Below, in pieces: positions 3,759 to 8,925 of a DNA stretch of 64,000 bases. The notes beneath the pieces were generated by a model that was given only the letters and a program-made list of their open reading frames with translations, made no database searches and was not told where the DNA came from. Origin of the DNA: Bacteroidia bacterium (lineage in GTDB: Bacteria; Bacteroidota; Bacteroidia; UKL13-3); NCBI GenBank assembly GCA_014376805.1, contig JACMQU010000001.1:1-64000 (forward strand), written 5' to 3'. A program made the translations under genes and the position numbers. Positions within the stretch are counted from its first letter, which is position 1. Every line of letters starts with the position of its first letter.

Positions 3759-3790
3759 AGTCGATGGTCCATAGTCCATAGTCCATAGCG
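3759..3790 (-). repeat. GACYATS heptamer cluster R1 (reverse orientation)
   Basis: On the plus strand the cluster reads as successive GTCSATR units, the reverse complement of the GACYATS heptamer: one gtcgatg followed by three gtccata copies and a degenerate unit. Bases 3767-3784 are an 18-bp perfect inverted match to 4499-4516 upstream of metH part 1. Weaker related units continue to about 3835. Confidence 0.85.
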
Positions 3791-3864
3791 TATAGTGAAT
3801 TGTCGTTTTATGGTATATCAACTATCGTCTATAAACTTTTCTCAGGCGAATTGAGTGGCCGATC

Positions 3865-4068
3865 TCAAATGTCCATTCTATTTATATAACCAGCTTTTAT
3901 GCCTTCAATTTCGTTAATGATATCGTTTAGGTCATCCAAAGTGATATCAAAGTCGTCACATATTTCATTCGGATCAAATAGCTTTCCCATTAAGAACTTT
4001 TTATTTTGGTGGTAGTTGTAGATTTTCTCACGATTGTGATTTAAGTCTGTTAACCTAGCTTCATGCAA
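3865..4068 (-). CDS. Small hypothetical protein, 67 aa
   Basis: A short acidic reading frame with a protein-like C-terminal part (LFDPNEICDDFDITLDDL, then an Ile/Asn-rich amphipathic stretch). I recognise no family. Translation could also start at the internal Met before GKLFDPNE, giving about 40 residues. It lies between heptamer clusters R1 and F1, on the strand opposite metH, with no clear ribosome-binding site. It may be a decayed gene remnant or a cargo of the repeat-bounded segment. Confidence that it is expressed is low. Confidence 0.35.
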   Translation of the reverse strand: MHEARLTDLNHNREKIYNYHQNKKFLMGKLFDPNEICDDFDITLDDLNDIINEIEGIKAGYINRMDI

Positions 4069-4265
4069 TATATTTAAAACTTAGGCGTTGGCGAACCGAA
4101 TTCTATATCGCATATTTACTTCTTCAAAATATTTGTAAAATCAAACACATTTATAATCTTGAAGATTGGCTAATTATTACCAAATAATATTAAAGAACAA
4201 TCACCAATAATGAATGGCATACATTGAATAATTAAAAAAAAATGCTTAACATAAGTCTTAATCAA

Positions 4266-4273
4266 TATATTTG
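4266..4273 (+). promoter_or_regulatory. Promoter -7 element of the SAM riboswitch-metH transcript
   Basis: TATATTTG matches TAnnTTTG exactly and ends four bases before the first base of riboswitch stem P1. Transcription would therefore start at the very edge of the aptamer, which supports both calls. No convincing -33 element is visible. Confidence 0.75.
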
Positions 4274-4277
4274 CACT

Positions 4278-4381
4278 ACTTATCCAGAAAGACTGAGGGA
4301 TTAGGCCCTAAGACGTCTTGGCAAGTTGCACCTCGTGCAATAGTGCTAACACCTATTCTGCAATTGCAGGAGCTGATAAGT
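4278..4381 (+). promoter_or_regulatory. SAM-I (S-box) riboswitch upstream of metH
   Basis: The aptamer follows the SAM-I consensus in order: P1 left strand ACTTATC (4278-4284), AGA plus the CTGAGGGA block, GGCCC, TTGGCAAG (GGCAA core), a TTGCAC/GTGCAA hairpin (P3), the diagnostic GTGCTAA, a CTGCAATTGCAG hairpin (P4) and the P1 right strand GATAAGT (4375-4381). SAM binding normally lowers expression of methionine-synthesis genes. Here the target is the split methionine synthase that begins at 4530. No obvious intrinsic terminator with a U-run follows, so the control mechanism (translational or otherwise) is unclear. Confidence 0.92.
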
Positions 4382-4485
4382 GAATGAAATGCTTCTGTAC
4401 AGGTAAGCTCTCAAACACAAATCAGTAAAAATTTAAGGATAGTCAATTTGCCACAGATCATAGTCCGTGCTTATTGAAAATTTTA

Positions 4486-4516
4486 AGCTATAGTCTAGGG
4501 ACTATGGACTATGGAC
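4486..4516 (+). repeat. GACYATS heptamer cluster F1 (forward orientation)
   Basis: Two complete GACTATG units plus partial and degenerate ones lie between the riboswitch and the metH part 1 start codon, ending 13 bases before the ATG. Bases 4499-4516 are the perfect 18-bp inverse of 3767-3784. Bases 4502-4516 are the perfect 15-bp inverse of 5538-5552, directly after the metH part 1 stop codon. Confidence 0.85.
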
Positions 4517-4529
4517 ATTTTAAAAAAAA

Positions 4530-5537
4530 ATGAACATTTACGACATATTAAAAAAGCGCATTGTAATTCTTGATGGAGCAATGGGAACCATGATTCAACG
4601 GCACAAACTTGAAGAGGAAGACTTTAGAAATGTTGCGCTAAAAGATCATGCCTATCCTTTAAAGGGTAACAATGATTTATTATCGCTAACCCGCCCTGAA
4701 ATTATTAAGGATATACACAGGCAATATTTTAACGCCGGTGCCGATATGATTGAAACAAATACATTTAGCGGTACAACCATTGCTCAGGCCGATTATCACC
4801 TTGAACATTTAGTTGACGATATCAACTATTATTCAGCAAAAATTGCACGCGAAGTTGCTGATGAAATCACCGCAAAAGAACCGCATAAACCTCGCTTTGT
4901 TGCGGGTGCTATGGGACCAACAAACCGCACCGCATCTTTAAGTCCGGATGTGAATGACCCCGGCTATAGGGCGGTATCATTTGATCAACTCGTTGCGGCA
5001 TATAAACAGCAGGCAGCGGGCTTGATAAAAGGGGGTGTAGATATGCTGCTTATAGAAACCATTTTTGATACACTGAATGCAAAAGCTGCTCTTTATGCAG
5101 TTGATGAATTATTTGAAGAACTTGGCAAGCATTATCCTGTAATGATTTCAGGTACAATTACGGATGCTTCGGGCAGAACACTTTCGGGTCAGACTACTGA
5201 AGCGTTTTTGATAAGCATGCAACATGCACCCTTATTAAGTATAGGCTTAAATTGTGCTTTGGGTGCAAGTGCTTTGCGTCCGTATCTTCAAATTATGGCA
5301 AACAACTCTCCATTTTTTGTGAGTGCTTATCCAAATGCAGGTTTGCCTAACGAATTTGGTCAGTATGATGAAAGTCCTTCCGCAATGGCAAAACAAGTGG
5401 AAGAGTTTTGTAAAGAAGGCCTGGTAAATATTCTTGGGGGTTGCTGTGGTACTACACCTGAACACATAAAAGCAATTGCTGATATGGCGGTGAAGTATGA
5501 GCCAAGAAATTTGAATTCAGTAAAAGCGTCCGGGTGA
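4530..5537 (+). CDS. metH: Methionine synthase, homocysteine S-methyltransferase module (split MetH, part 1)
   Basis: A 335-residue homocysteine-binding barrel equivalent to the N-terminal module of B12-dependent methionine synthase. It activates homocysteine thiolate for methyl transfer from methylcobalamin. The zinc ligands are visible as C242 (GLNCALG) and C305/C306 ([10 protein letters not shown]). The start [15 protein letters not shown] is also typical. The folate, cobalamin and reactivation modules are in the separate gene at 6244, so the enzyme is assembled from two polypeptides, as in many Bacteroidota. Expression is expected to be repressed by SAM through the upstream riboswitch. 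Heptamer repeats sit immediately before the start and directly after the stop codon. Confidence 0.95.
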
Positions 5538-5562
5538 GTCCATAGTCCATAGCTGATAGACC
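5538..5562 (-). repeat. GACYATS heptamer cluster R2 (reverse orientation)
   Basis: It starts at the base following the metH part 1 TGA. It holds two gtccata units, a degenerate unit and a partial one. Bases 5538-5552 are the exact 15-bp inverse of 4502-4516, and 11 bases (ctatggactat in reverse complement) match 6155-6165 in the large array. Confidence 0.85.
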
Positions 5563-5600
5563 ATAATAACTCAAGGATGCAGTTGAATTCATTGTCAATT

Positions 5601-5627
5601 TTGGAAAACAGATAAACATTAACTTTG
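5601..5627 (+). promoter_or_regulatory. Possible promoter of the four-helix-bundle gene
   Basis: TTG at 5601-5603 and TAACTTTG at 5620-5627 fit the Bacteroidota -33/-7 pattern with a 16-base spacer, slightly shorter than usual. The gene starts 124 bases downstream. The match is moderate and could be chance in AT-rich sequence. Confidence 0.4.
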
Positions 5628-5751
5628 TCAGGTATGAACTGGTTTCATCGTTTAAAAGCCATAAAATATAATAATGTAAATTACACAGTCAAAGTCATAT
5701 ACGAAAGCCCCTATTAAATGTATTAAGGGTCATTAATAAAATCTAACAATA

Positions 5752-6099
5752 ATGTTCAAATTTGAAAATCTTGAAGTTTGGAAGAAGTCGATGGACTTAA
5801 TTGTTTCAATAGACAAAACTTCTAAAAAATTCCCCAAGGAAGAACAATATATACTTACCTCTCAAATTAAAAGAGCTGGAGATTCAATTACACTCAATAT
5901 TGGAGAAGGTTCCCAAGGACAAAGCAATCCGGAATTTTCTAAGTTTCTAGGGTATTCAATTAGATCTTGTATTGAAGTAGTATGTTGTATCTATATTGCT
6001 CGAGTGAGAAATATTATAGATGATGAAGATTTTGATATCATTTATTCAAGATGTGAAGAATTAGTTAAAATGTTACAATCTTTAAGAAATAAACTCTAA
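5752..6099 (+). CDS. Four-helix-bundle protein of the S23 / 23S rRNA intervening-sequence (IVS) family
   Basis: A 115-residue, nearly full-length member of the four-helix-bundle family first known from ORFs in intervening sequences of 23S rRNA genes and related to the Avd accessory protein of diversity-generating retroelements. Typical signatures are FENLEVWKKSMDL at the start, the central QIKRAGDSITLNIGEG and FLGYSIRSCIEV. The cellular function is unknown; Avd binds nucleic acid and reverse transcriptase. No reverse transcriptase or template repeat is nearby. It sits alone between the two metH genes and is flanked by heptamer repeats in inverted orientation (R2 and F2), so it looks like an inserted cassette rather than a methionine-pathway gene. 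Confidence 0.9.
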   Translation: MFKFENLEVWKKSMDLIVSIDKTSKKFPKEEQYILTSQIKRAGDSITLNIGEGSQGQSNPEFSKFLGYSIRSCIEVVCCIYIARVRNIIDDEDFDIIYSRCEELVKMLQSLRNKL

Positions 6100-6133
6100 T
6101 TAATAAATAAAATTATTCACCATTGAATGTAAT

Positions 6134-6220
6134 CTATGGACCATCGACTATCGACTATGGACTATCGACTATCGACCATGGACTATCGACTATCGACTAT
6201 CGACCATGGACCATCGACTA
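6134..6220 (+). repeat. Large GACYATS tandem heptamer array F2
   Basis: An uninterrupted 87-bp array: a 5-base partial unit, eleven complete heptamers and a 5-base partial unit. Every complete unit fits GACYATS, varying only at position 4 (C/T) and position 7 (C/G). It ends 23 bases before the metH part 2 start codon. A 7-bp period is not codon-compatible and no frame through it looks coding. Confidence 0.95.
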
Positions 6221-6243: not shown

Positions 6244-8925
6244 ATGAAAGACTACACACTTAGACTATCCGGTCTTGAGCCCTTAGTAATTACCAAAGAT
6301 ACCAACTTCGTTAATGTGGGCGAAAGAACCAATGTTACGGGATCAAAAATGTTCTTACGGCTGATCCGTGAAGGAAATTTTGAAGCTGCACTTGCTGTAG
6401 CAAGAGAGCAGGTAGAAGGGGGTGCTCAGATTATTGATATAAACATGGATGAAGGAATGATTGATGGCGTGGAGTCTATGGTACGCTTTCTTCACCTCAT
6501 TGGATCAGAGCCCGATATTTCAAGAGTTCCTGTTATGATAGATTCATCAAAATGGGAGATTATTGAGGCAGGTTTAAAATGTGTACAGGGTAAATGTGTG
6601 GTTAATTCAATTTCTTTAAAAGGCGGTGAGGAAGAATTTATCAGACAAGCCAAAATTGTTAAACGTTTTGGTGCGGCTGTCATTGTTATGTTGTTTGATG
6701 AAACAGGACAAGCTGACAATTTTGAACGAAGAATAGAAATTGCAGAACGGGCCTACCGCATTCTCACAGAACGTATTCACTTTCCTGCAAGTGATATTAT
6801 TTTCGACCCTAATATTTTTCCGGTAGCCACGGGCATGGAAGAGCACAGGCGCAATGCAATTGATTTTTTTAATGGAACCAAATGGATCAAAGATAACTTA
6901 GCCGGCGCTAAAATAAGTGGTGGTGTATCTAATGTGTCTTTTTCTTTTCGTGGCAACGATAAAGTACGTGAAGCGATGCACTCGGCTTTCTTATATCATG
7001 CCATAAAACATGGAATGGATATGGGAATTGTTAACCCCGGCCAGCTTGAAGTATATGATGAAATTGATAAGAAATTGCTGGAACATGTAGAAGATGTATT
7101 GCTTGATAGAAGAGATGATGCAACGGAACGATTGCTTGAGTATGCAGAAAAAGTAAAAGGTAAAGGTAAAGAGAAAGTGGTTGATGATGAATGGCGAAAG
7201 GCTCCTGTAGAGCAGCGTTTAAGCCATGCTTTAATTAAAGGCATTGTAGAGTTTGTTGAAGTGGATACAGAAGAGGCAAGACAGAAATATGCTAGACCAC
7301 TGGAAGTAATTGAAGGCCCGTTAATGGCCGGAATGAACGTGGTGGGAGATCTTTTTGGAGCCGGCAAAATGTTTTTACCTCAGGTGGTTAAGAGTGCCCG
7401 TGTAATGAAAAAATCTGTGGCTTACTTAATGCCTTACATGGAGGAAGAAAAAAGAAGAACCGGTGATACTTCAACTTCTCAGGGCAGAATTTTAATGGCC
7501 ACTGTAAAAGGAGATGTGCATGATATTGGTAAGAACATTGTAGGCGTGGTACTGGCGTGTAATAATTATGATATTATAGATATTGGCGTTATGGTTCCTG
7601 CAGAAAAAATTCTCGAAACAGCCATCAGGGAGAAAGTAGATATAATTGGTTTAAGTGGTTTAATTACGCCAAGTTTAGATGAAATGGTGCATGTGGCCAA
7701 AGAGATGGAACGCCTCGGAATGACTATTCCTCTTTTAATTGGTGGGGCCACTACTTCTCGTGCTCATACTGCCGTTAAAATAGATCCCGTTTACAGCGGT
7801 CCTGTAATACATGTGCTGGATGCAAGTAAAGGGGTTCCTGTGGTTCAAAGCCTTATAAGTCCGGCCCAAAAAGATGCAACCAAAATTAAATTTAAACAGG
7901 ATTATGATCAGTTTAGAATCGATTATAAAAACAGAAGAAAAGATAAAAACTTCGTTGACCTGACAAAAGCCAGAGAGCACAAATTTAAAGTGGAATTTGA
8001 AAACGTTGTTGAACCCTCTTTTATAGGAAATAAAATTATCAATAATTATCCATTGGCAGAATTGCGCAAAAGAATTGACTGGACTCCTTTCTTTTTAACA
8101 TGGGAACTTGCGGGTAAATATCCGGCCATTTTTAATGATAAAATAATTGGTATTGAAGCTAAAAAACTTTTTGATGATGCCAATGAATTACTGGATAAAG
8201 TAGTGAATGAAAATTTATTACAGGCATGTGGTGTAATTGGTTTATATAAAGCAAATTCAATAGGTGATGATGTATTGGTAACTATTCCGGTTGCAGGTAC
8301 GGAACAAAAACAAATCTTTCATTTTCTTCGTCAGCAAAATGAAAAAGCAGCAGATCTGCCGTATCTGTGCCTTGCAGACTTTATTGCCCCACAGGATAGT
8401 GGCATGCAAGATTATATCGGCATGTTTGCTGTAACAGCAGGTATCGGTATTGAACCTATTGTTGAAGCATTTGAAAAAAATCATGATGATTACAACAGCA
8501 TTATGATAAAAGCATTGGCTGACAGGTTAGCAGAAGCTTTCGCAGAGAAAATGCATGAACTGATTCGTACAGAATATTGGGGTTATGCAAAAGGAGAACA
8601 TTTTACGGATGAAGAAATTATCAGAGAGAAATATGATGGAATCCGCCCTGCACCAGGTTATCCGGCTTGCCCTGACCATACAGAAAAGCTAAAATTATTT
8701 GAAGTACTCGATGCTGAAAAGAACACAGGAATTTCATTAACTGAAAACTTTGCCATGTATCCAACAGCGGCTGTAAGTGGATTTTATTTTGCCAATCCAC
8801 AGAGTAAATACTTTGCAGTTGGTAAAATACAAAAAGACCAGGTAGTGGATTATGCTAAACGTAAAAATCAAAGTATAGAATGGGTTGAAAAGTGGTTAGC
8901 ACCTAACCTGGGTTACGACAATTAA
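6244..8925 (+). CDS. metH: Methionine synthase, folate/cobalamin/reactivation modules (split MetH, part 2)
   Basis: An 893-residue protein carrying the remaining MetH modules. Residues ~1-290 form the pterin-binding (methyltetrahydrofolate) barrel ([16 protein letters not shown]). Residues ~310-540 are the cobalamin cap and Rossmann domains, with the lower-ligand motif D424-x-H426-x-x-G429 and GGATTSRAH. Residues ~560-893 are the AdoMet reactivation domain ([15 protein letters not shown]). Together with the 4530 gene it transfers the methyl group from methyl-tetrahydrofolate to homocysteine. All key motifs are present. It lies 706 bases after part 1, beyond the four-helix-bundle gene and array F2. 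Joint expression from the riboswitch promoter is likely but not proven. Confidence 0.96.

Follow-up and report, generated by a model that had tools for sequence, protein, structure and literature searches.

An S23 gene between inverted heptamer arrays at a metH junction of a Bacteroidia bacterium: a candidate mobile cassette of operon junctions

A 64,000-nucleotide (nt) stretch of the draft genome of a Bacteroidia bacterium (contig JACMQU010000001.1, forward strand; hereafter the window) was analysed in this study, and the segment at 5537–6220, between two metH genes, is interpreted as an S23-heptamer cassette, that is, a small DNA element made of one S23 gene and two inverted heptamer arrays that form its ends. 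We give this reading a probability of roughly 0.6; recognition of the arrays by the S23 protein and the mode of movement are the parts that we infer. Sequence comparison suggests that S23 genes and the arrays around them (the arms) behave as a single exchangeable, mobile cassette, because the two are associated, the arms track the protein and cassettes are exchanged at the metH site.

The left arm (5537–5565, + strand), with the letters AGTCCATAGTCCATAGCTGATAGACCATA, is a degenerate array of the type AGTCCAT AGTCCAT AG..., the first base of which lies at the stop codon of metH part 1. The right arm (6134–6220, +) consists of about 12 tandem heptamers (CTATCGA/CTATGGA) in inverted orientation relative to the left arm and ends 23 nt before metH part 2. 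Between them, a gene encoding 115 amino acids (5752–6099, +) was assigned by profile match and predicted fold to the S23 or 23S ribosomal RNA (rRNA) intervening-sequence (IVS) family of four-helix-bundle proteins, scoring 118.2 bits against PF05635 (curated cut-off 33.8) and 109 bits against TIGR02436 (cut-off 24). The earlier note on this DNA, made from the sequence alone, had described such a gene between oppositely oriented arrays and a perfectly complementary 11-mer (5542–5552 against 6155–6165), and both are exactly as claimed; the best inverted pair, 5537–5565 with 6135–6163, extends over 29 nt at 83% complementarity. S23 is the sole gene between the arms, and no recombinase was found inside the window cassette. 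Only four contigs of the 3.88-Mb draft genome show the heptamer pattern of the window, and the genome contains four S23 matches.

For the wider survey, the two flanks of each S23 gene were paired as ungapped inverted repeats, and loci scoring at least 14 were counted as armed. In a Bacteroidota survey, which favours high-scoring S23 genes, inverted flanking repeats were identified at 53% of 113 S23 genes compared with 2.6% of 654 non-S23 genes from those regions (Fisher p 6e-42). Shuffled flanks reached the threshold score in 0% of cases, and 11 of the 17 non-S23 genes that scored as armed adjoin an S23 gene. Within the phylum, S23 was found in 116 of the 148 genomes. In a set of 80 named genome loci, mostly from Bacteroidota, 53% of 77 were armed, against 3% for mismatched flank pairs, and among Cyanobacteria, where the highest score was 68, 64% of 28 S23 loci were armed. 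Arms were also present at 59% of 29 S23 loci in another seven genomes, which carry the labels Cyanobacteria, Syntrophobacterales, Ignavibacteriae, Clostridia, Atribacterota, Marinimicrobia and Methanophagales; most of these are metagenome-assembled genomes (MAGs), one of them archaeal, so that single contigs may be misbinned. The association of S23 with arms is general, being found in many bacteria and apparently in some archaea, the latter seen in one MAG, which answers the question raised in the earlier note of how often S23 genes elsewhere are flanked by heptamers. Inverted pairs of period 7 were absent from random regions of Bacteroidota, both in 360 kilobases (kb) from S23-free and in 400 kb from S23-rich genomes, and one was found in 316 kb of random cyanobacterial regions. 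By comparison, 795 kb picked around S23 genes and around own-genome heptamer arrays held 36 pairs of period 7 or 8, of which 21 enclose S23.

The arms share a common anatomy. Their autocorrelation is 0.67, 0.70 and 0.71 at lags of 7, 14 and 21 and about 0.25 at most other lags, and the best period is 7 in 80 of 98 loci and 8 in 11. AG recurs every seven bases in the left arms of 62 of the 98 loci and in the right arms of seven, so one motif faces inward at both ends. The possibility that the left arm supplies universal stop codons in three frames fails on heptamers like AGTATCA and AAGAATC, in which there is no stop codon. In loci L299, L303, L321 and L341, a separate hairpin stands on each side of S23, or an additional right-type arm precedes it, and the arms may therefore pair in alternative ways.

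Cassettes sit at gene junctions within metabolic operons, in sense orientation. S23 is co-directional with its upstream gene in 55 of 58 cases, against 272 of 356 in the comparison, and 50 of the 58 agree in direction with both neighbours, against 205 of 356. The left arm starts at a median of +1 nt from the upstream stop codon (quartiles −4 and 11) and is closer to this stop than to S23 in 84 of 93 loci, and the right arm ends at a median of 11 nt before the downstream ATG. If the segment from one arm through the other were excised, the remaining gap would be a normal one, with a median of 12 nt. Recurrent host junctions include what we take, from protein sequences, to be metH-metF, fadB-fadA, fadA-fadE, gmk-nadD and pyrB-carA. 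The arrangement fadB-S23-fadA is common to 26 loci and fadA-S23-fadE to 12, across orders. The gmk/nadD junction of F. columnare also holds a four-helix-bundle gene (PMC5524665).

The host genes in the window are metH part 1 upstream (4530–5537, +; homocysteine S-methyltransferase domain, S-methyl_trans) and metH part 2 downstream (6244–8925, +; pterin-binding, B12-binding and activation domains), and their junction was read in about 50 relatives. Empty junctions, with gaps of 0–24 nt, were found in L128-130, L143 and L144, where metH is still encoded by two genes. The split of metH is thus independent of the cassette, and the insert as its cause is rejected. Occupied junctions hold either a type-A S23 with CTATGGA-type heptamers, a type-B S23 (31–41% identical to the window S23 in L060-L077) with GCTTCTA-type repeats, or, in L061, L067, L068 and L069, a GxxExxY-like gene with CACAGAG-type repeats, assigned by eye from sequence. 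In the nearest member of the genus that was read (L059, G008; gap 84 nt), the junction carries a period-8 hairpin of the type CAAAGAAA that contains no open reading frame (fold z −7) and may be what is left of a cassette or a non-autonomous version of one.

These variants interleave on the tree of metH part 1, in which L065 (type B) pairs with L068 (GxxExxY) as its sister and L066 (type A) comes next, and the flanking genes of such close pairs with differing cassettes are still 91–97% identical. In the S23 tree, types A and B form two clades, each composed of metH-site genes only, that are not sisters. In locus L072, remnants of A-type heptamers lie between the stop of metH part 1 and a B-type arm, the footprint of a cassette replacement. 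The comparison indicates that three unrelated cassettes swap at the metH junction among close relatives. The cassette is accordingly present, absent or exchanged in the relatives compared, as the earlier note had proposed to determine; since the type-A S23 loci read at the metH site carry heptamer repeats, the contrary case named there, the same S23 gene at this site with no repeats, was not encountered among them. In several relatives, the upstream protein ends within the arm, which encodes its final residues together with its stop codon. The ratio of nonsynonymous to synonymous substitution rates (dN/dS) of S23 in relatives is 0.03–0.13, which indicates purifying selection; the pair L064/L066 was left out of this calculation, as L066 has a premature stop. 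In L066 the type-A S23 is a decaying copy, broken off by a premature TAA that follows codon 11, and the arms around it are intact.

The arms also follow the protein where loci have no common neighbour. Their 6-mer overlap declines with S23 distance from 0.63 in the closest class (11 pairs) to 0.17 in the next and 0.013 in the far one (Mantel test, 0/500), and at the fad junctions own arms pair better than swapped arms (0/5000 permutations). Two Flavobacterium S23 proteins that are identical at 96 of 118 residues and have like arms are encoded one at gmk-nadD and the other at an unrelated site. As in DNA transposons, inverted ends are present and like cassettes are found at unrelated sites. The earlier suggestion of a mobile or processed element that uses protein-coding operons is therefore supported for mobility, given the exchange at metH, the same arms at unrelated sites and the sense orientation in operons, and is unsupported for RNA processing.

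Several observations weigh against this interpretation. About 40–47% of S23 genes have no clear arms under the ungapped test. The position of the right arm does not favour the downstream start over the S23 stop (40 of 83), and the idea that this arm is anchored at the start was therefore dropped. The correlation between arms and protein mixes host genera, genus not being separately controlled, and for type A at metH, swapped arms pair as well as own ones do. Neither a transposition intermediate nor a recombinase was found, and target-site duplications were not seen at metH junctions, where the heptamer arrays obscure the borders. S23 paralogs inside one genome are mostly less than 50% identical, unlike an actively copying transposon, the sole close within-genome pair seen being L117 and L118, which lie on one contig (G001:C39) and are 77% identical; apart from this pair the within-genome copies have diverged, and an active multicopy transposon is rejected. 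The pattern is that of cassettes which are exchanged and now and then transferred, rather than copied in bulk.

Members of the S23 family have been reported as toroidal homopentamers without known function (PMC4990558). The predicted monomer fold of the window S23 (predicted local distance difference test score, pLDDT, 90) has a template modelling (TM) score of 0.94 to 2gsc (Xanthomonas XCC0516) and 0.84 to 2rld (Bacteroides thetaiotaomicron BT_0352), which belong to the same family and fold; the Xanthomonas protein is a toroidal homopentamer, whereas the window S23 was predicted as a monomer. A ring built from a number of like subunits could plausibly read an array of repeats. In the mechanism that we propose, the S23 protein, a homopentameric ring in its family with an Avd-like fold, would bind its own heptamer array at both ends, and this binding would favour retention, copying or insertion of the cassette. 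The cassette would hitch-hike on operon transcription for S23 expression, and its movement might proceed through host or trans-acting enzymes.

The earlier note had suggested an IVS-like RNA element, in which the arms would pair in the mRNA and cutting by RNase III would free the S23 segment and separate the upstream and downstream messages. Its appeal comes from the IVSs of 23S rRNA in Coxiella, Leptospira and Brucella, which encode a protein of the same family and have complementary borders and RNase III cutting (PMC4990558), from the sense orientation in operons, and from the arms at orthologous fad sites, which diverge yet stay complementary. A stem kept in the transcript should bias arm mismatches towards G·U over A·C. 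The counts, however, were 133 G·U and 157 A·C in Bacteroidota and the named loci (p 0.18, an uncalibrated test), 26 and 24 in other groups, and 35 and 30 in Cyanobacteria, so this test gives a stem maintained as RNA no support. When folded, the segment does close on the arms in its minimum-free-energy structure, but the energy is no better than that of shuffled sequences (z −0.5), total folding energy being uninformative as a test of the stem. No rRNA was found in the window, where the S23 gene sits between metH genes, or in 20 S23 loci scanned. Excision by RNase III is thus unsupported and this explanation unlikely, and a DNA-level element is favoured because there is no G·U excess and the fold energy is ordinary.

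Equally improbable is a regulatory module, in which S23 would bind heptamer stems in the mRNA of its own operon and regulate or couple translation of the flanking genes, with old sites such as fadB-fadA having been domesticated. The position of the arms, which adjoin stop codons and in many cases come close to start codons, is consistent with this proposal, as are the recurrence of the two fad arrangements across orders, the purifying selection on S23 and a second heptamer pair beside the S-adenosylmethionine (SAM) riboswitch of the same operon. Among relatives, however, unrelated cassettes and empty junctions interchange, the hosts are many unrelated operons, and the G·U signal is absent here as well.

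An element assisted by a reverse transcriptase (RT) encoded elsewhere, with S23 working like the Avd protein of diversity-generating retroelements, is very unlikely. The window S23 model matches Avd at TM scores of 0.79–0.80 (4dwl and 8ub7), with a four-helix-bundle fold in common; in contrast to Avd, sequence identity is 6–8%, and the cassette has no linked RT, template or variable repeat, with no RT found beside the window S23. RT (PF00078) was identified in 48 of 116 S23-bearing and 12 of 32 S23-free genomes, and several genomes with 11–16 S23 genes have no RT match; an RT acting in trans is therefore rejected for lack of co-occurrence with S23. The least credible alternative is a mutational by-product in which intergenic slippage yields heptamers that S23 merely tolerates, for although tandem repeats can grow by slippage and heptamer arrays without S23 exist, the inverted pairing, the period specificity, the near absence in random regions and the correlation with S23 relatedness all speak against it, and the results on enrichment contradict it.

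Similar to rRNA IVSs, the S23-heptamer cassette encodes a PF05635 protein, has complementary borders capable of forming a stem, and shows conserved insertion sites and a sporadic distribution that suggests horizontal transfer. Unlike them, it is inserted in operons transcribed as mRNA and not in an rRNA gene, has tandem-heptamer ends and lacks an RNA-pairing signature. Heptanucleotide repeats (TAACTGA) have been described in Beggiatoaceae, Cyanobacteria and Bacteroidetes (PMC4679880), and some heptamer and octamer arrays on opposite strands in Geobacter have been proposed as regulator binding sites (PMC2700814), in neither case with mention of S23. These repeats resemble the arms in being intergenic tandem heptamers, often near start codons; in the present case, by contrast, such arrays form the two inverted ends of an S23 cassette and vary in sequence with the clade of the protein. 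In a study that mined clustered regularly interspaced short palindromic repeats (CRISPR) loci, the legend of a figure on what CRISPR adaptation modules are associated with lists the 23S rRNA IVP domain (PMC10910872). In the open-access papers searched, subscription papers being outside the scope, no report of S23 with heptamer ends was found. We file the finding with the S23 elements, and there is a real chance that it forms a class of its own.

Somewhat more broadly, and at odds a little short of even, we tentatively propose a new class of minimal mobile element of bacteria and probably archaea, built from a four-helix-bundle ring protein that is not a recombinase and from tandem-heptamer inverted ends that drift with the protein. 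Such an element would lodge at operon junctions and explain part of the heptanucleotide repeats of Cyanobacteria and Bacteroidota, and rRNA IVSs would be its special case within rRNA genes. S23 proteins are common and structurally solved but lack a function, and the tie to heptamers gives them a testable ligand. Conversely, short tandem heptamers, reported in several groups with no agreed role, gain a testable owner, and cassettes may account for heptamer repeats that have long been puzzling in genomes. The origin of rRNA IVSs also becomes testable; IVSs may represent a wider cassette, found mostly in operons, in the form that it takes in rRNA genes.

Similar containers are also found with other contents. 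GxxExxY / PDDEXK_3 (PF13366) genes (L236-L265) are a second cargo in a similar container, with CACAGAG-type inverted repeats of a period of about 8 that reach a score of at least 14 in 11 of 29. In the window, a second inverted pair of the same heptamer type (3767–3795 and 4488–4516, both +), the right member of which lies directly before metH part 1, encloses the SAM riboswitch (4277–4382, +) upstream of that gene. A degraded S23 inside this pair was considered, and no S23-like frame was found at 3788–4488. Further arrays of the window genome, at G000:C86:15590-15653, C34:6340-6361 and C36:11160-11174, have no S23 and no inverted partner that we could find. In genome G012, a short-loop heptamer hairpin stands directly before metH part 1 (L043 378-449).
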